Below, piece by piece: positions 2,857 through 26,433 of a stretch of DNA of 47,737 nt. How positions within the stretch are numbered: the stretch's first letter is position 1; the number at the start of each line of letters is the position of its first letter. Below the pieces are notes generated by a model. It saw only the letters and a list, made by a program, of their open reading frames with translations. It was not told the origin of the DNA and did no database searches. This DNA comes from Candidatus Zixiibacteriota bacterium (GTDB taxonomy: Bacteria; Zixibacteria; MSB-5A5; GN15; JAAZOE01), in NCBI GenBank assembly GCA_030668485.1, contig DAOUTW010000033.1, forward strand, positions 1 to 47,737. Reading direction: 5' to 3'. Both the position numbers and the translations under genes were made by a program.

Positions 2857-4319
2857 AGTTTTTGACCCGGTAATTCTCTCATTTTGTGCCTGCGAGCTTC
2901 ACCCCTCATTAATCTCGTCAGGGTTTGTTTTGCATTATCATCGGTTTCGGAAGGTCGATATGCCTCCAAAAGCCGACGGACTTCTTTGTGGGCGCGTTCG
3001 CCCAGGGTCAGGGCACCTTCCTCCTGCCAACGGGAACGATTGGCCCGGTCGATAACCTGACTGGGGAAATAGTGTTCCTCTTTCAAGTACTTACGTGTAT
3101 GTTTTGAAATCAGCAGGTGTTTGTCTCTTAAAAGCTCCTCGAAATGCGGCAGGGAGGGGAAATCCTCCTTCGGCTCGATACCTTTTATCATCCGTTTGGT
3201 CATGCCGCAGATTTCATTATCAAGTACCAGTTTTTCGAGGCTGAAACAGCTTTCGAAATCAAGCATACCCGGTCCCGAAATGTTATTTATCCCGGACAGT
3301 GCCGCCAGAGTAGCTCCCATTGCAGTTTCAAATCCAGCCTGGGCATCGAGAAGTTTGGCATCGCTCAATCCGATATAAGCCTGAGTCGGGATGTTTAAAT
3401 ATTTCCCAATCTCATTATAAGCGCAATCGATCATCTCGGTCTCCACCGCGCCCATCGGGGTCGTTTCGTACCTGATATCGAATGCCGCCGGAGATCCCCC
3501 ATAAAGTATCGGCGCCCCCGGTTTGGCGAACTGGCTTATAACAATACCACTCAAAGTTTCGGCGGTGTGTTGCACCAGGGTCCCGGTCAGCGTGATAGGG
3601 GCCATAAACCCGGACAGCGGCATCGCCACGAATTCCACCGGGATCATATGTTGGGCGCAATCGATGACGTTTTGAGAGGTAACGCTGCTCCATTTCAAGG
3701 GAGAGGTCGGACAGCAGGAAAAAACAGTCAGGGGTTTCGCTGCCAGTTCCTTTTCGCTGCCGCGGACCGCCAGTTGAAGGTCTTTCATAATACCGAAAGC
3801 CTCAATGGTAAATGCTCCGGTTACTACCGGTTTGGTGCCATGAAGCAGACTCAGATAAAGGCGATAACTGTCCGAAATCATTTCGGGAACATCCGATGGA
3901 ATCATCGCTGTGCTCTGTGAGGCGATATGTGGCATCTGCTCGACAATCCTGACATGTTTGATATAATCGGCGGTTGTCGGTCGACTCATCTCTCCGGTAG
4001 CATGATCGAGGATATTCAGGGCGGTCGAACCGGGAGTGAAATTAACATTATATCCCGCCATATCGACCGCTTCCTTGCCCAGGGTGTCGTAGAGCTTGAA
4101 CGATGCGGGAACCGATTTCAAGGCTTTGTCGATCAAATCTGATGTAAACCGGATTGTTTCCCCGTCGTCTCCAACAATGGCGCCGTTGTCGGACAACATC
4201 GATACGATACCTGGGTTGTGAATGGTAACTCCGAGTTTTTGGAGGATATCGCGCGCCTCGCCTAATATCTGCTCAATTAGATCATTTTCCAAAAACCTGA
4301 CCTGTGGTCTCATCATCAT
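2853..4319 (-). CDS. MttB-family (trimethylamine/betaine-type) methyltransferase, non-pyrrolysine
   Basis: About 488 residues related along the whole length to trimethylamine methyltransferase MttB. No in-frame TAG is present, so this belongs to the branch without pyrrolysine. Members of that branch demethylate quaternary amines such as glycine betaine, carnitine or proline betaine, or have unknown substrates. Recognisable stretches include NFTPGSTALNILD, GGSPAAFDIRY and the AQAGFETAMGATLAALSGIN region. The frame stays open to a TTG at 4343, but an AAAGG ribosome site lies just before three consecutive ATGs (4319, 4316, 4313), so I start at 4319. It is the first gene of the operon and should methylate the corrinoid protein two genes downstream. 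The substrate cannot be read from sequence. Confidence 0.92.
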   Translation of the reverse strand: MMMRPQVRFLENDLIEQILGEARDILQKLGVTIHNPGIVSMLSDNGAIVGDDGETIRFTSDLIDKALKSVPASFKLYDTLGKEAVDMAGYNVNFTPGSTALNILDHATGEMSRPTTADYIKHVRIVEQMPHIASQSTAMIPSDVPEMISDSYRLYLSLLHGTKPVVTGAFTIEAFGIMKDLQLAVRGSEKELAAKPLTVFSCCPTSPLKWSSVTSQNVIDCAQHMIPVEFVAMPLSGFMAPITLTGTLVQHTAETLSGIVISQFAKPGAPILYGGSPAAFDIRYETTPMGAVETEMIDCAYNEIGKYLNIPTQAYIGLSDAKLLDAQAGFETAMGATLAALSGINNISGPGMLDFESCFSLEKLVLDNEICGMTKRMIKGIEPKEDFPSLPHFEELLRDKHLLISKHTRKYLKEEHYFPSQVIDRANRSRWQEEGALTLGERAHKEVRRLLEAYRPSETDDNAKQTLTRLMRGEARRHKMRELPGQKL

Positions 4320-8511: not shown

Positions 8512-10359
8512 TTAGGGGCAATCAGGTGAGGGACCGCCCTTAAACACATAGTTTATAAGATAAACGCCGTCAGCGATATTTACTTCATCGTCACCATTGG
8601 CATCTCCGGCGATCTCTGGATCGGGTGCGGGACCATCCTTGAATACATAATTGATAATGAAAACGGCATCGGCGACATTGACTTCCGAATCGCCATTGGC
8701 ATCGCCGCAGACAAAGACCGTAATCGTTACCGCCTGCTCGGTGGTGTAATATGGATCGGAAACCGAAACAGTGAATCCGGCTGTTACGACACTATCAGGC
8801 GTGGTACCTACCAACGAATCGTTCTGAATCGTGAGCCATTCCGGATAATCGGAATAATCGAGAAATAATAAGGTGTCATCCGGATCGGTGAACTCCGGAA
8901 AGTAAGCGAATCCGGTGGCCGCTTCGCAAAAGAGAATTTCGGGCGATATAATCGACGGAGGGCTGTTTACCGAAAATTTATGGGCCCCCGGTTCGCCGAT
9001 AAAAGGGTGCGTTTCCACGCGGCCCGAATTGTCACCGGCCTGGATATAATAGGAGACACTGATTCCACCTTTTTGCGCCGGGATGTAACCATAAAAAGAA
9101 TCGGGAACGGCGGTGGCAAAAAGAGGCGCCGTCTGAAACTGGCTCTTCGATTGATAGAATATTTTCAAAGAATCTTCAATCAAAGCGCTTCCCGAATGTG
9201 CCACAATTCTTACCGACACCTTATAATCATTTAGGGTATCGCCGGTGACGCTCAGCGGCATATGTTGAATTTCAAGCATGCCACGGTCGGGAACACCCAT
9301 GGCCCGGCAATGGATGGCGTCATCGTCATACCACGAACCGTCGAACCCAAGGACTTCATATCCCGGCATGGCATCCTCATATACCTGCAGAGCGGCATCG
9401 TCATAACTGGAATTGAACGTCGGGACAAGTACCTTGTTATTCAAAATTATGGAGTTGGTATAGGCGGTGCCATATGGGCAATAGACCCTGACGATCGTAT
9501 ACGGTTTGCCCCAGGCGCTGATCTGCTGCGACAGGTACTCGGCGCGGTCATTGAGGAGAGTATAGCTGGAGCTGCCGGTCGGTACATCTTTTACCAGGAT
9601 TGTGGTCGGACTCAGAAATTTCGCCCAGCAATCGATATGGTGAATTCCGCTCGACTCGATATAGTTGAGAACGGTATAGTCGTTGCCTACAAAAACCCTC
9701 ATGATGGAATCTACTTCGTCATGCGATAAACCGGGATTTTCGTCATATACCAGCCAGGTCGACATCGATGTCCCCAATCCGTCCGACATATGATTGCCGC
9801 CGGGGGTTTCGAGGTTCATGCCATAAACGGGTAGACTCCATTCCGAACCGATAACACCGGGGATTACATCGTCGTCGGGGCGAGGACGATTGTAGATAGG
9901 ATCAACAATCCCCAATTCGCCGCTGCCGTCGAAAATAAACCAGGGGCCATAGTCTCTCGTCCAGATACTGTTGGTCGGCGCAATAATAAACTCGGTATTG
10001 GTCATATTTACGCCGTTGGCGCTGTAGGTACTGCTGGCGTCGCTTAGCTGATAACTGCTGCCGACGATAGTTGTGACCATCAGATATTCCGAGTATTCCG
10101 CAACCAGGGAAAGCGAGATGCCCAGCGGCCAGCGAACGATTACGCCCACGGAGGGTTCCCATTCGGCACAATTTCGAATCGGACCTGTCGGCGGGGCAGT
10201 GTTGATATGATTGACACCGATTTCATCCTGCCGAATCAGCTCGTCATCGGTCATCTCGATCGGCAGAAAATCGAAATCGGCATTATCACCGGAAACTGGC
10301 GCGGCAATGAATACTGAAATTAGCAGGGTAATAATCAGTCGGTTGCTGAAGAATCTCAT
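8512..10359 (-). CDS. Secreted peptidylarginine/agmatine deiminase-like protein with dockerin repeats
   Basis: 615 residues: signal peptide (about 1-24), then a Porphyromonas-type peptidylarginine deiminase/agmatine deiminase fold (about 60-375). Conserved elements are TRDYGPW (134-140), GGNH (187-190), HHIDCW (240-245) and the presumed nucleophile Cys351 in AIHCRAMGVPD. A beta-sandwich stretch (about 390-460) and a cadherin/Ig-like segment (about 465-550) follow. The C-terminus is a pair of dockerin-type calcium loops (GDANGDSEVN and GDANGDDEVN) ending GGPSPDCP. Cytosolic agmatine deiminases lack the signal peptide and dockerin, so an extracellular role such as citrullination or guanidine deimination is likely. 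The ATG at 10359 has a GGGGAG site. Confidence 0.9.
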   Translation of the reverse strand: MRFFSNRLIITLLISVFIAAPVSGDNADFDFLPIEMTDDELIRQDEIGVNHINTAPPTGPIRNCAEWEPSVGVIVRWPLGISLSLVAEYSEYLMVTTIVGSSYQLSDASSTYSANGVNMTNTEFIIAPTNSIWTRDYGPWFIFDGSGELGIVDPIYNRPRPDDDVIPGVIGSEWSLPVYGMNLETPGGNHMSDGLGTSMSTWLVYDENPGLSHDEVDSIMRVFVGNDYTVLNYIESSGIHHIDCWAKFLSPTTILVKDVPTGSSSYTLLNDRAEYLSQQISAWGKPYTIVRVYCPYGTAYTNSIILNNKVLVPTFNSSYDDAALQVYEDAMPGYEVLGFDGSWYDDDAIHCRAMGVPDRGMLEIQHMPLSVTGDTLNDYKVSVRIVAHSGSALIEDSLKIFYQSKSQFQTAPLFATAVPDSFYGYIPAQKGGISVSYYIQAGDNSGRVETHPFIGEPGAHKFSVNSPPSIISPEILFCEAATGFAYFPEFTDPDDTLLFLDYSDYPEWLTIQNDSLVGTTPDSVVTAGFTVSVSDPYYTTEQAVTITVFVCGDANGDSEVNVADAVFIINYVFKDGPAPDPEIAGDANGDDEVNIADGVYLINYVFKGGPSPDCP

Positions 10360-10556: not shown

Positions 10557-10754
10557 TTATTTCTTCTTCTTGGCAGGCTTCTTATAGCCTTTGTGCAAGT
10601 GGCAGTATTTGGCCGGAGGAGCTACCATCCGTTTACACCGCTTCCCATCCTTGGTCAACGCGCCGCAACGGACTTTCTTGACGACTTTCTTCTTTACTAC
10701 CTTTTTCTTCGCCACTGCTTTCTTCTTTACGACTTTCTTTTTCGCTTTACGCAT
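10557..10754 (-). CDS. Small lysine-rich protein with a Cys/His zinc-finger-like motif (DUF5763-like)
   Basis: 65 residues. Residues 2-28 consist almost only of Lys, Val and Ala, like a histone-H1 tail. Residues 30-54 carry C-x9-C-x10-C-x2-H (Cys30, Cys40, Cys51, His54) in the context GALTKDGKRCKR...YCHLHKG, a short motif known from DUF5763-like proteins that probably binds zinc. A second basic stretch ends the protein (KKPAKKKK). The charge suggests nucleic-acid binding, perhaps nucleoid- or ribosome-associated. The gene has a GGAGG site seven bases before the ATG, its own near-consensus promoter and a strong terminator, so it is monocistronic and probably well expressed. Function is not established. 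Confidence 0.88.
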   Translation of the reverse strand: MRKAKKKVVKKKAVAKKKVVKKKVVKKVRCGALTKDGKRCKRMVAPPAKYCHLHKGYKKPAKKKK

Positions 10755-10786
10755 ACTGCATCCTCCATAAAATGATTAACAGGTAC

Positions 10787-10815: not shown

Positions 10816-11177
10816 CAAAAAATATCATTATTATCTCAAAATAATTTATTGATAATCTATCGATGTGATGACAACGAATGATACATTATCCTCATATCTG
10901 CCATATCATGCATGCATCCTCGATAAGTATCCGTATCGAGTAATGCCCTATGTCTTTAATAAAAACATTTTAACCATTATCGGCATGAAGTCGATTATTA
11001 CTTGCCGACTCTTTCTTTTCGTTTTAGCAATGGGTAAAAACTCTAAGATTATTTTTGGAGATAGGCTATATATGTCGCAAAAGTGCTTGAAAAAAGTCCC
11101 GCTTTCCGTTACTTTCCGGTTCTAATTGAGGGCCATAATGGCACAAATGAGATAAACGATGTAGCGTGGAATATAAA

Positions 11178-13175
11178 ATGAGCGAAGACTTCAATCCGGG
11201 CGAGAATTATAAAGAATCGCTGCAACTAATCGGGTATATCCCTCGCGACGAGGCGAGACAGGAGGTATATACCAATCTTGGCTTCAAATGCGGGCTGGAG
11301 ATTCATCAACAGCTAAAAACCGCAAAAAAGCTTTTCTGCCGCTGCCCAGCCGGTCTCTATCAGGACGGCGACGATTTTGATGCCGAATTGATACGTCATA
11401 TGCGTCCGACCCTGAGCGAACTGGGCGAATACGATGGCACCGCCCTGATGGAATTCAGGACCAGGAAGAATATTATCTATCGGATAAAAGATGAGAGCGC
11501 CTGTACTTATGATATTGATGATACCCCGCCGTTTCCGATCAATCGCGAGGCGCTCGATATAACCATCGAGGTAGCACTGCTTCTCAAGGCTAATATCGTA
11601 GGTGAATTGCATATTACCCGAAAACAATATCTCGATGGCTCGATACCGACCGGATTTCAAAGAACCGCTATTGTCGGCATTGAGGGGGATATTCCGTTAA
11701 GTAATAAAAAGGTCAGGATGATCCAGATCAGCATCGAAGAAGATTCCTGCCGTGAAGTATCTGATAAAGGGCATTTCAGGACCTATACTACCGATCGGCT
11801 TGGGATACCGCTGATGGAAATGGTCACCTATCCCGATATGAAAACGCCTGATGAAGCCGCCGAGGCGGGGCAATATCTCAGGTTCCTCGCCCGAAGTACC
11901 GGTAAAATGCGCACCGGAATCGGTGCCGGCAGGGAAGATGTCAACGTCAGTATCACCGGTGGGGAAAGGGTCGAGATCAAAGGGGTGGCACATATAAAGT
12001 GGATTCCGGAGTTGACTCATAACGAGGCATTTCGACAGAAAGCTCTTCTGGAAATCAAACGGATTATCAGTAAAAGAGTGAATAATCCAAATCAGTGGAA
12101 AATCAATTCGATCCAGCTTAATCAAAACAATATCGCTTCAGGAAGCGGGACGTATCGGGAGGCGCGCAATCGGAAGAGCAATCTGATAGCGGTCAATTTA
12201 CCCCAATTCGAGGGCATCCTGTCGTTTTTCACTCAACCGGGTAAAATGTTTGCCACCGAACTAAGCGACCGTCTCAAGGTTATCGCCTGCCTCGAAAGAC
12301 CGAATATGACACATTCGGAGGCGTTCCTCGCCGATGATGAAATCGATCCACTGGGCAATGAAGAATGGAAAAATGTTAAAAAGCTTCTTCATGCCAAAGA
12401 AGGCGACGCTCAGATCGTTTTCTGGGCGCCGGATGATGATATCAAGACGGCGCTGGAGACGATTGAAGAACGATGCCTGCTGGCCTTCGAGGGCGTTCCC
12501 AATGAAACCAGAAAATCTTTTCCTGATGGCACTACAATCTTTGAACGGGTTTTACCTGGGGCGGATCGGATGTATCCCGATACCGACTCGGCCCCGATAT
12601 CGATTGATGACGATCAGATTGAGAAGATCAGGGAGAATCTGCCCGATCCCGTCGATTCGCGTCTGGCAAGCCTGAGAAAGTGGCGGGTCCCGGAAGATAC
12701 TTATCATTATCTTTTAAAAAGAAACCTCGTCTGGATAATTCAAAAAATCGTGGATGATTTCAAAGTATCGCCGAAGTTTATCGGGACATTATTCGGGCAC
12801 GATCTGAGACATATTGAAACCAGAATAGTACCGGCGGCCCAGTTCAGTTATTATACGATTTACGGACTGTTCAAATTTCTCGACAATCGGAAGTTGGATA
12901 TCGCGATTGCCCGCGAAATACTCCCGGAACTTTATGCCCATCCGAAAATGGTCTTCGATTCGGTTCTCACCACTATCGGATACAAAAAGCACAGCCGCAA
13001 TGATATTCTCTCCAATGTTCCGGCTCTGAGGAAGAAATTTGCCGAAATCCGGACCTCATCCGAAAGCCGGGCCGAGATCGACTGGATTATGGGTAATCTT
13101 CGTAAAATCGCCATCGGAAATATTCCCCTGAGCGAATTGAGTACTTCTATCGGGGAGGAAATCAACCGTGACTGA
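11178..13175 (+). CDS. gatE: Archaeal-type glutamyl-tRNA(Gln) amidotransferase subunit E
   Basis: 665 residues. GatE is the tRNA-binding, kinase-like subunit that activates Glu on Glu-tRNA(Gln) and amidates it with ammonia supplied by GatD. Seen here: CGLEIHQQL (38-46) and LFCRCP at the start of the catalytic cradle, the GIGAGREDVNVSI motif, an inserted GAD domain (about 350-450) and GVPNETRK...FERVLPGADRMYPDTDSAPI, then a tail domain like that of GatB. The GAD insertion distinguishes it from bacterial GatB. A GTG at 11166 is in frame, but the ATG at 11178 has GTGGAA upstream, so I start there. It overlaps gatD by 8 bases. GatDE is regarded as an archaeal system, so its occurrence beside clearly bacterial genes is notable. 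Confidence 0.95.
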   Translation: MSEDFNPGENYKESLQLIGYIPRDEARQEVYTNLGFKCGLEIHQQLKTAKKLFCRCPAGLYQDGDDFDAELIRHMRPTLSELGEYDGTALMEFRTRKNIIYRIKDESACTYDIDDTPPFPINREALDITIEVALLLKANIVGELHITRKQYLDGSIPTGFQRTAIVGIEGDIPLSNKKVRMIQISIEEDSCREVSDKGHFRTYTTDRLGIPLMEMVTYPDMKTPDEAAEAGQYLRFLARSTGKMRTGIGAGREDVNVSITGGERVEIKGVAHIKWIPELTHNEAFRQKALLEIKRIISKRVNNPNQWKINSIQLNQNNIASGSGTYREARNRKSNLIAVNLPQFEGILSFFTQPGKMFATELSDRLKVIACLERPNMTHSEAFLADDEIDPLGNEEWKNVKKLLHAKEGDAQIVFWAPDDDIKTALETIEERCLLAFEGVPNETRKSFPDGTTIFERVLPGADRMYPDTDSAPISIDDDQIEKIRENLPDPVDSRLASLRKWRVPEDTYHYLLKRNLVWIIQKIVDDFKVSPKFIGTLFGHDLRHIETRIVPAAQFSYYTIYGLFKFLDNRKLDIAIAREILPELYAHPKMVFDSVLTTIGYKKHSRNDILSNVPALRKKFAEIRTSSESRAEIDWIMGNLRKIAIGNIPLSELSTSIGEEINRD

Positions 13176-14550
13176 TATGTTTAAAGGATATAGGGGAGAG
13201 GCGCTGGCGGCGCTGAAGAAATTCAATGTCAGGGTTTGGAGCGATGCCCGGATTAAAACCACGCGAGGTGATTTCAACGGCATTATCCTGCCCCGCTCGG
13301 AAACCGACGACGATAAGCATATCGTTCTAAAGCTGATAACCGGATACAATGTCGGCATTACTATCTCGACCATCACCGATATGGATGAATGCGGCTACAA
13401 GGAAGCTCATTATAAGATCCCGGAAAAGGAATTCCCGTTCTCCGAAGACAAACCGAATGTCAAGCTGTTCGGCACCGGTGGAACCATTGCTTCGCGGCTT
13501 GATTATCGTACCGGAGCGGTCATACCGGCTTTTTCGCCGGGTGAACTATACGGAGCGGTTCCGGAACTGGCCGATATCTGCAATCTGACCACGGAAAAAC
13601 TATTTGCCGTTTTCAGCGAAAACATGGGGCCGCAGCAATATCTGACGTTGGCCAGGAATATCGGCAAAGAAATCGAGAACGGTATCGACGGAATCATTGT
13701 CGGTCATGGCACCGACACCATGCATCATACCGCCGCCGCCTTGTCATATATGATCCAGGATCCGCCGGTACCAATTGTATTGGTCGGATCACAGAGGTCC
13801 TCGGACCGTCCCTCATCTGATGCCGCCTTAAATCTTATGCATGCCGCCAAAGCGGCCGCCGAATCGGATATTGCCGAGGTTCAGGTATGTATGTTCGGAC
13901 CGACCTCGGATAAATACGGGCTGCTGCACCGCGGTACCCGCGTTCGCAAAATGCATTCTTCATACCGATCCACATTCAGGACGATAGGTGATCGGCCGCT
14001 GGCAATGATAGATCGCGAGACTATCAAACCGATAAGACAGGATTATAATCGCCGCCGCAAAGATCGGAAAGCCACGGTCCTGCCATATTTCGAAGAACGA
14101 GTGGCGCTGGTCTATTATTATCCCAACATGCACCCTGATATTATCGATTCGCTGGTCGACAACGGCTACCGGGGAATCATCATCGCCGGAACCGGACTGG
14201 GCCATGTCAACAAACCGGTTTACCCGGCTATCGAGCGAGCTGCCAAGGCTGGAGTGGCGATGTATATGACCGTTCAAACCCTCTGGGGTTACGTCCACAT
14301 GTTCGTCTATGACACCGGACGCGACCTGATGAGCCTTGGGCTGATTCCGACCGAAAACATGCTTCCCGAAGTCGCTTATATTAAATTGGGCTGGGCGCTG
14401 GGGCAAACCGACGACATTAATGAAGTCAGGAAATTGATGCTGACACCGATTGCCGGAGATATCACCGAACGGGAGCCGTATGACGGCTACCTGATTTTCC
14501 AGGGAGGCGTCCCGGAAATCAGGGAGTTTATCAAGACGATCTATAAGTAG
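13168..14550 (+). CDS. gatD: Archaeal-type glutamyl-tRNA(Gln) amidotransferase subunit D
   Basis: 460 residues. GatD releases ammonia from Asn/Gln for GatE. An N-terminal SH3-like domain (about 1-90, typical of GatD and absent from free L-asparaginases) is followed by an asparaginase fold. Active-site candidates are Thr106 in GTGGTIAS, Thr182-Asp183 in GHGTDTMHHT and Lys261 in RVRKMHSS, matching the Thr/Thr-Asp/Lys set of the family. VGSQRSSDRPSSDAALNL is also typical. The start overlaps the end of gatE by 8 bases, so the two are translationally coupled. A hairpin terminator follows. Confident from the N-terminal domain plus linkage to gatE. Confidence 0.95.
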   Translation: MTDMFKGYRGEALAALKKFNVRVWSDARIKTTRGDFNGIILPRSETDDDKHIVLKLITGYNVGITISTITDMDECGYKEAHYKIPEKEFPFSEDKPNVKLFGTGGTIASRLDYRTGAVIPAFSPGELYGAVPELADICNLTTEKLFAVFSENMGPQQYLTLARNIGKEIENGIDGIIVGHGTDTMHHTAAALSYMIQDPPVPIVLVGSQRSSDRPSSDAALNLMHAAKAAAESDIAEVQVCMFGPTSDKYGLLHRGTRVRKMHSSYRSTFRTIGDRPLAMIDRETIKPIRQDYNRRRKDRKATVLPYFEERVALVYYYPNMHPDIIDSLVDNGYRGIIIAGTGLGHVNKPVYPAIERAAKAGVAMYMTVQTLWGYVHMFVYDTGRDLMSLGLIPTENMLPEVAYIKLGWALGQTDDINEVRKLMLTPIAGDITEREPYDGYLIFQGGVPEIREFIKTIYK

Positions 14551-14573
14551 CCTCAGAACGGGAATAAGCAAAA

Positions 14574-14604
14574 AAAAGGCCGGGACATTTATCCCGGCCT
14601 TTTT
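14574..14604. terminator. Bidirectional intrinsic terminator between gatD and the convergent barrel gene
   Basis: Stem AAAAGGCCGGGA/TCCCGGCCTTTT around a short loop (14586-14591), with a T-run on the plus strand and an A-run upstream that gives a T-run on the minus strand. It lies 24 bases after gatD and 28 bases from the end of the minus-strand gene. Confidence 0.9.
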
Positions 14605-24315: not shown

Positions 24316-26433
24316 CTACAAACAATTCGGTACCGCGCCGCCTCGGAAAATAAAGTTTATCAGGTAAACCGCATCGCCCACATTCACATCACCGTCGGCA
24401 TTGACATCGGCGGCCCACATTGAGGCCGGAGGAAGTCCTCCGGAGAAAACATAGGAGATAACAAATACCGCATCACCGATATTAACGTCGCCATCCCCGT
24501 TGGCATCCCCGCAGGGGAGATCGCAGGCATCACCGATTCCGTCGGAATTTGAATCGGCCTGGTCGGTATTGAAAACCCCGGGACAATTATCGATAGCGCA
24601 GCTTGTCATCGGATATCCAGGACTGCCATAACCGTCACCATCGGAGTCAACGCAATCATCGCATAAATCACCGATACCATCATCGTCGATATCGGCCTGG
24701 TCGGCATTAATAACATCATAGCAATTATCGCAGCTATCGCCAATTCCATCGCTATCGAAATCCTCCTGACCTGGATTATAATCCGATACGCAATTATCAT
24801 CAGCACATTCATTGGCCGCATAGGCCTCATCACCGAAACCGTCGCCATCGATATCGGTACACAGATCACAGTCATCGCCTATTCCGTCGCCATCGGCATC
24901 GAGTTGATCTTCATTGCCGATAGTCGGGCAATTGTCGCAGTCATCGGGATAACCATCTTCATCGGTATCGATATTGTCATCATAGCCGGGACATATATCG
25001 CATAAATCGCCGACCCCGTCTCCGTCGCCATCGTTCTGGTCGGGGTTATAATCACCGGGACAATTGTCAAAACAATCGCAAATGCTGTCGTTATCGATAT
25101 CGGCACACTCCATATCGGTGAATCCTATACCGTCATTACCCCATTGATAGGTCGCGCGCTGTCCATCCTCACTCAAATCACTGCATCGATATTCGGTCCG
25201 GATCGTCTTGATAGGATCGCTGATCAGCATCGGCTCAGTCCATGAAATACCACCATCGCAGGCTGTTGTCGAATACAGTCTTCCATTCTTAACAAAGGTA
25301 CAAATAAAATAACCGTCGTCAGTATGTGTTATCCGCGGAGCCGATTCCGCATCTTCGGTACCTGCCACTACACCACGGTAAACCAGGCTGTCGACATCGC
25401 CGACAAAGGTACTCCAGCAAACAATATCGGTATCGGAGGCGTTATCTTCATTATATGCCTCGGTAACAATCATGATAGTGTCGTCATAGGCCGCAATTGA
25501 CGGATGATTCATATGCCAGGTGGTATCATCGAAATAAATTTCCGCGCCGTCGGTCGGCAAAAACCAGTCGCTGAAATAATCCTGCCGCACAAAAAGGCGC
25601 CATTGATCCGGCGTCGGATAATAACGATCATATACGGCATATGTTTTGCCCCCGACCGGATCGATATCGACTGCCGTCGACTGGCACCCGCCCAAAGTCG
25701 GGTACCAACTCAATTGAGTATGGCCGATTGCATCCAACTGGCTATAAATATGCGGCGCGTTATTGATGACATCGTCGCCATCGTCGAAACTCATCACCAG
25801 CGAAATCAAACCCCAATTCCATGACTGCTGGCTGTTGTCGGCCGAAATGTCAGACATAATCATACTATGCCAGCCGTTATCGGAAAAATCGGTCCAGTAG
25901 GGCAGCCAGGATTCCGGATCGGTGGCATCCTGAAACTCAAGCAGCACCACTCCGGCTCCCGACAAAAAGCTGGCTGGAGAAACAAAGGTGCCGAAAAAAG
26001 TCCGGTCGGCGCCCCAATAATCGAGGGATGGATATGTGGCCAGATCAACATCGAAGCCATAAGCGGTAGACCAATTATTGCCGTCATCGGTTGAAGATAG
26101 CCAGTAAATAATGCTGTCACCCGTGACGTCGTTGTGATATTCCAAACCTCTCAGAAGAGTCCCATCCGAGGCGCGATCGATAACAGGATGCCCCGTGTAT
26201 AGAGAGTTGCTGCCTTTTTCATGAGAAAGATCGAGTATCATCGGGTTCAACTCATCTTTCCTGATCATCTGCGGTAGTAAAACCCTTTCCGGTTGAATAT
26301 CCACCGATTCGACCCGGGCTTTGGTGGAAAGGTAACCAGGGGGATTAATCACCGGCTCCGAAGCATGAATACCCGACAGCAGAACAATGCCGCCGATCAT
26401 AATCGATAATGATATTAAAGCGAATTGCTTCAT
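24316..26433 (-). CDS. Secreted protein with sialidase-like propeller, thrombospondin type-3 repeats and dockerin
   Basis: 705 residues. Signal peptide (about 1-25). Residues about 40-440 contain Asp-box-like and propeller-like segments (WLSSTDDGNNWSTAYG, TACDGGISWTEPML), as in BNR/sialidase-type repeats; a specific activity cannot be claimed. Residues about 445-635 form at least six thrombospondin type-3 calcium repeats of the form DxDxDGxGDxCDNC. The C-terminus is a dockerin pair (GDANGDGDVNIGDAV and DVNADGDVNVGDAV) ending GGAVPNCL. The architecture indicates a calcium-stiffened, surface or secreted protein. The ATG has AGGAAGG upstream. Length and signal peptide fit a complete gene. Confidence 0.87.
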   Translation of the reverse strand: MKQFALISLSIMIGGIVLLSGIHASEPVINPPGYLSTKARVESVDIQPERVLLPQMIRKDELNPMILDLSHEKGSNSLYTGHPVIDRASDGTLLRGLEYHNDVTGDSIIYWLSSTDDGNNWSTAYGFDVDLATYPSLDYWGADRTFFGTFVSPASFLSGAGVVLLEFQDATDPESWLPYWTDFSDNGWHSMIMSDISADNSQQSWNWGLISLVMSFDDGDDVINNAPHIYSQLDAIGHTQLSWYPTLGGCQSTAVDIDPVGGKTYAVYDRYYPTPDQWRLFVRQDYFSDWFLPTDGAEIYFDDTTWHMNHPSIAAYDDTIMIVTEAYNEDNASDTDIVCWSTFVGDVDSLVYRGVVAGTEDAESAPRITHTDDGYFICTFVKNGRLYSTTACDGGISWTEPMLISDPIKTIRTEYRCSDLSEDGQRATYQWGNDGIGFTDMECADIDNDSICDCFDNCPGDYNPDQNDGDGDGVGDLCDICPGYDDNIDTDEDGYPDDCDNCPTIGNEDQLDADGDGIGDDCDLCTDIDGDGFGDEAYAANECADDNCVSDYNPGQEDFDSDGIGDSCDNCYDVINADQADIDDDGIGDLCDDCVDSDGDGYGSPGYPMTSCAIDNCPGVFNTDQADSNSDGIGDACDLPCGDANGDGDVNIGDAVFVISYVFSGGLPPASMWAADVNADGDVNVGDAVYLINFIFRGGAVPNCL

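Follow-up and report, generated by a model that had tools for sequence, protein, structure and literature searches.

The window is the whole analysed stretch of DNA, 47,737 nucleotides from a Candidatus Zixiibacteriota bacterium, and it contains a two-gene operon, gatE-gatD, on the + strand. gatE (11166..13175) encodes 669 amino acids when read from a GTG codon. An ATG at 11178, where relatives also begin, gives a protein of 665 amino acids and is probably the likelier start. gatD (13168..14550) encodes 460 amino acids from a GTG start and overlaps gatE by 8 bases. Both genes fall into a clade of GatDE that is referred to here as type 2. Just 3' of gatD is a strong predicted bidirectional intrinsic terminator (14573..14604), composed of a 13-14 bp stem followed by a T-run on both strands. 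No tRNA genes or Rfam RNAs were found in or near the operon. Between gatE and the upstream gene, the - strand holds a small Lys-rich open reading frame (10560-10757) with a Cys/His motif (CGALTKDGKRC...CHLH). Two further - strand genes of the window encode proteins with a dockerin domain at the end: a peptidyl-arginine-deiminase-like protein (8512-10359) and a thrombospondin-repeat protein (24316-26433).

The initial annotation described two genuine, full-length subunits, and profile and structure comparisons agree. The window's GatE scores 475 bits against the NF003107 GatE profile (cut-off 456), covering profile positions 5-623 of 630, and 405 bits against TIGR00134 (cut-off 319.55). Against the GatB model it reaches 137 bits at best, below the cut-off of 338, which places it outside GatB. 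GatD scores 507 bits against TIGR02153 (cut-off 324) and matches the Pfam GatD_N domain and both asparaginase domains. By sequence search, the nearest solved structures to both proteins are the GatDE complexes 2d6f (Methanothermobacter thermautotrophicus) and 1zq1 (Pyrococcus abyssi). AlphaFold models were obtained with a pLDDT of 89.8 for GatE and 80.8 for GatD. In Foldseek, the GatE model aligns to GatE of 2d6f and 1zq1 over ~520-550 columns, most of the chain, with a TM-score of 0.77-0.82 on the target, and in this predicted model the match includes the insertion, helical, and tail domains. The GatD model also matches GatD of 1zq1 and 2d6f by fold. Profiles and predicted folds confirm the two full-length proteins as members of the broad GatDE family.

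The expected active-site residues are in place as well. The GatD motifs GTGGTIAS and GHGTDT and a conserved Lys, together with the GatE motifs GLEIHQQL, EED, DxN, and ExKG, are invariant among the aligned archaeal and bacterial members. Their catalytic roles are assigned by homology, and we take the GatD residues to be the asparaginase catalytic residues. Retention of the GatD/GatE amidotransferase chemistry in type 2 is well supported by these alignments and by the predicted models. GatD has a mean column identity of 77%, and this strong conservation suggests that the GatDE complex is under selection. GatE is weakly conserved in its helical (0.34) and tail (0.29) parts, the parts that hold the tRNA in known GatDE. 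A Pfam search of the window's GatE gave no match to the GAD or YqeY tail domains, which, with the weak conservation, indicates that the C-terminal half is divergent. Of the GAD insertion that was first reported for this protein, an equivalent segment is visible in the alignment and in the model, though it has no Pfam GAD match.

The initial annotation called the operon archaeal-type, and here the trees disagree. In an 85-row GatE tree, canonical archaeal GatE stands apart from a clade composed of all bacteria and nine Thermoplasmatota sequences. With 15 GatB sequences from bacteria and archaea as the root, and 435 columns in common, canonical archaeal GatE and type 2 are sister clades with 100% bootstrap each. 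GatD likewise forms a single type-2 clade on a long stem, in a tree whose inner order is unsafe because of long archaeal branches. The window's genes group with type 2, outside the canonical archaeal clade. Canonical archaeal GatDE, as in 2d6f and 1zq1, agrees with type 2 in its two subunits, the order of their domains, the active-site motifs, and the fold, but at sixteen GatE positions each type has its own fixed residue. Both GatE types are present in the Thermoplasmatota MAGs G201 and G210. The fully supported clades indicate that type 2 is a separate, deep-branching GatDE subfamily, mostly bacterial and common to some Thermoplasmatota. The deep split in the GatB-rooted tree bears out the ancient history that was proposed for the operon. 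Archaeal GatE was sampled from Thermoplasmatota and two Euryarchaeota, to the exclusion of Asgard, TACK, and DPANN. On this sampling, type 2 may go back to either retention or ancient transfer, and may possibly descend from an archaeal lineage outside the sampled set.

An assembly chimera or archaeal contamination almost certainly does not explain the window's GatDE. GC content is ~45-50% throughout the locus with no composition break, and the genome is bacterial, as first proposed. The operon recurs in independent genomes: of 132 genomes sampled from the window's phylum (Zixibacteria), 86 have GatE and/or GatD, and GatDE is present in all seven genomes sampled from the window's family. In trees, the window's genes cluster with bacteria and away from canonical archaea, and a closed chromosome of Ignavibacteria Ch128a (CP054675) bears the type-2 operon together with GlnRS. 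For the type-2 family as a whole, chimera and contamination were rejected on the recurrence, the closed chromosome, and the even composition. Of the diderm neighbours that were reported for the operon, the window shows a secretin and a POTRA domain, together with a match to an OMP barrel that falls short of its Pfam cut-off.

A scan of the genome collection with a GatE alignment gave at least 579 confirmed stretches. Among the best 80 of these, all but three are in records titled as bacteria, the exceptions being Thermoplasmatota, and type-2 GatE is found in MAGs of ~20 bacterial phyla. The bacterial groups among these best 80 are Planctomycetota, WOR-3, Ignavibacteria, Chlorobiota, Bacteroidota, Zixibacteria, Fermentibacteria, KSB1, Krumholzibacteria, Aminicenantes, Cloacimonetes, Coatesbacteria, Myxococcota, Acidobacteriota, Eisenbacteria, Calditrichota, Caldisericia, and others. 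gatD lies inside the fetched flank of gatE in 60 of the same 80 stretches, and in several families of the window's phylum the two genes are not linked. In family f4 (e.g., L076, L079, L082, and L083), gatD is unlinked and the GatE profile match ends at about position 550, indicating a strongly diverged C-terminal tail. No neighbour gene recurs across the type-2 clades, and the only synteny seen, with GlmU/GlmS-like genes, is local to Thermoplasmatota. In one genome (G080, locus L068), the GatD gene, on the - strand, has an in-frame UGA in place of the codon for the conserved Cys241. The congener L073 has Cys at this position, and the UGA could encode selenocysteine or could be a sequencing error.

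The window's genome is 99.95% complete and encodes GlnRS, GatA, and GatB, which answers the question of glnS raised by the initial annotation and, for GatA and GatB, that of gatCAB. GlnRS (760 bits) is on contig C34, adjoining GluRS, and GatA and GatB are on contig C40. The AspRS/LysRS/AsnRS family is represented by three genes, whose sizes fit one of each. The genome also has tRNA-Gln(UUG) and tRNA-Gln(CUG), both bacterial-type with U1-A72. GlnRS and these tRNA-Gln genes give a direct route to Gln-tRNA(Gln) that exists without GatDE. At the position of Thermus Arg358, every readable GluRS of the phylum has Arg, whether GlnRS is present or absent, and as a marker of tRNA discrimination the residue does not tell these genomes apart. 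Of the division of labour that was suggested for the operon, the coexistence of GatDE with GlnRS and GatA/GatB stands, and the split itself is plausible.

Co-occurrence was counted in the 78 good genomes of the phylum (>=90% complete, <=5% contaminated), with presence compiled by hand by bit thresholds. GlnRS is found in 53 of the 56 genomes with GatDE versus 10 of the 22 without (Fisher p 4e-6, uncorrected for relatedness). GatB shows no association, with 28 of 56 versus 13 of 22. Across phyla, GlnRS is over the cut-off in 38 of 50 type-2 genomes, and in G129 and G130, relatives of the window's genome, glnS divergently adjoins gatE-gatD. These counts and the glnS adjacency indicate that type-2 GatDE accompanies GlnRS and does not replace it. 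A replacement of GlnRS or GatCAB by type-2 GatDE was considered and is contradicted by the co-occurrence. A closed Phycisphaerales chromosome (G137, CP070718), otherwise complete, has the type-2 gatE-gatD, and of GlnRS only a 173-amino acid C-terminal remnant (L214:2847-3365).

Archaeal GatDE reads A1:U72 tRNA-Gln (PMC9499178). The host of the window's type-2 GatDE, with GlnRS and U1-A72 tRNA-Gln, differs from the canonical archaeal setting of A1-U72 tRNA-Gln and no GlnRS. In GatCAB, GatB shares the catalytic cradle and tail with GatE, and known examples of either subunit amidate Glu-tRNA(Gln). The glutaminase subunit of GatCAB is the amidase GatA, whereas that of GatDE is the asparaginase-type GatD, and GatE further differs from GatCAB by its insertion domain; the window's genome has GatA and GatB of its own besides GatDE. 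Bdellovibrio, Deinococcus, and Thermus keep GatCAB beside GlnRS and AsnRS for tRNA-dependent Asn synthesis (PMC4206432). Their GatCAB, like type-2 GatDE, is an amidotransferase retained despite direct synthetases. To our knowledge, GatDE acts only on Glu-tRNA(Gln), and thus the Asn-synthesis explanation does not carry over.

The favoured reading, to which we give about an even chance, is that type-2 GatDE works alongside GlnRS as an auxiliary amidotransferase of Glu-tRNA(Gln). An auxiliary role is the most likely one because GlnRS already makes Gln-tRNA(Gln) directly in the window's genome. Mischarging by GluRS would generate Glu-tRNA(Gln). GatD would release ammonia from Gln or Asn, and GatE would phosphorylate and then amidate the Glu side-chain carboxyl on the mischarged tRNA, converting Glu-tRNA(Gln) to Gln-tRNA(Gln). 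The enzyme would serve in the repair of mischarged tRNA or as a conditional second route, and in the window's genome it would read the bacterial U1-A72 tRNA-Gln. We infer this substrate, the auxiliary role, and the U1-A72 recognition. Support for the auxiliary role comes from genome sequence and predicted structure, namely the curated-profile matches, folds, invariant motifs, strong GatD conservation, GlnRS association, and glnS adjacency, and the presence of GlnRS, GluRS, GatA, GatB, and the two U1-A72 tRNA-Gln genes in the same genome. Against it, a full direct route alongside GatDE is also expected if the substrate is a different one, and the tRNA-holding helical and tail parts of GatE are weakly conserved. 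Type-2 GatDE could indeed keep the GatDE chemistry and act on another Glu-tRNA species or on a non-tRNA Glu carboxyl, which we consider possible but less likely. Such a substrate would fit the coexisting complete routes to Gln-tRNA(Gln) (GlnRS in most genomes, canonical GatE in G201 and G210), the sixteen fixed differences, the unlinking of gatD and gatE in several families of the phylum, and the divergent tRNA-binding half of GatE. However, every catalytic motif is kept, as is the overall fold of GatE, helical and tail domains included; no recurrent neighbour hints at another pathway, and tRNA-Gln is indicated by the glnS adjacency in G129 and G130 and by the association with GlnRS.

Type-2 GatDE is improbable as the main housekeeping route to Gln-tRNA(Gln), with GlnRS or GatCAB as the accessory. 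In G120 (94% complete), GatDE was found and neither GlnRS nor GatB, as expected of a main route, but GlnRS is present in G121 and G122, which belong to its family, so G120 may simply be incomplete. G127 (100% complete) has GatDE and GatB, and GlnRS was not found; yet GatB is present in 13 of the 15 good genomes that lack GlnRS, whatever their GatDE, and ten good genomes have GlnRS without GatDE. A vestigial gatDE, kept by chance after GlnRS acquisition, would fit the redundancy with GlnRS on paper. This has very little probability given that both subunits are strongly conserved over ~20 phyla and that the association with GlnRS is positive, not negative.

In a wider form of the argument, held tentatively and at somewhat below even chances, type-2 GatDE may be a functionally distinct tRNA-dependent amidotransferase that is coupled to GlnRS and does not replace it, either policing Glu-tRNA(Gln) or amidating another Glu conjugate, in ~20 bacterial phyla and a few GlnRS-acquiring Thermoplasmatota.

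GatDE is described in reviews as restricted to archaea (PMC8762117; PMC9499178; PMC8007984), the first two citing it as an archaeal signature protein, and type-2 GatDE in many bacterial phyla breaks this statement. No description of a bacterial GatDE family was found in the open-access literature, with most subscription papers outside the search, and the family appears to be undescribed. Annotation pipelines probably already name such genes GatD and GatE. Coevolution of GatDE with archaeal tRNA-Gln has been offered as the reason that archaea are without GlnRS (PMC9499178). The presence of type-2 GatDE beside GlnRS and U1-A72 tRNA-Gln weakens this reason. Being comparably deep, type 2 also bears on the tracing of GatDE back to LUCA, and through it the purpose of GatDE when GlnRS is present becomes a testable question.

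Two Thermoplasmatota MAGs have a GlnRS match on a contig named C81 in each: G181 (715 bits, L210:253-2445) and G171 (622 bits, L211:1683-3587). Type-2 GatE is the only GatE type found in either. Both glnS contigs also bear an archaeal-type tRNA-Gln(CUG) with A1-U72, and in G181 a tRNA-Glu(CUC) lies on the other side of glnS. The tRNA genes on these contigs argue against a binning error. The two glnS genes are candidate archaeal GlnRS and conflict with the published statement that GlnRS is absent from archaea (PMC9499178).

Of ~110 loci scanned, two (L086 and L122) have a tRNA closely preceding gatE, which is about chance level. In L122 (Coatesbacteria), a tRNA-like gene at 16-90, ~120 bases upstream of gatE, has the anticodon UUA, U37, and an A1-A72 mismatch, and is possibly a degenerate tRNA. 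In L086, an archaeal-looking tRNA-Glu(CUC) without encoded CCA (3726-3802) lies ~170 bases 5' of a type-2 gatE-gatD operon, on a contig that may be archaeal though its record is titled as a bacterium.
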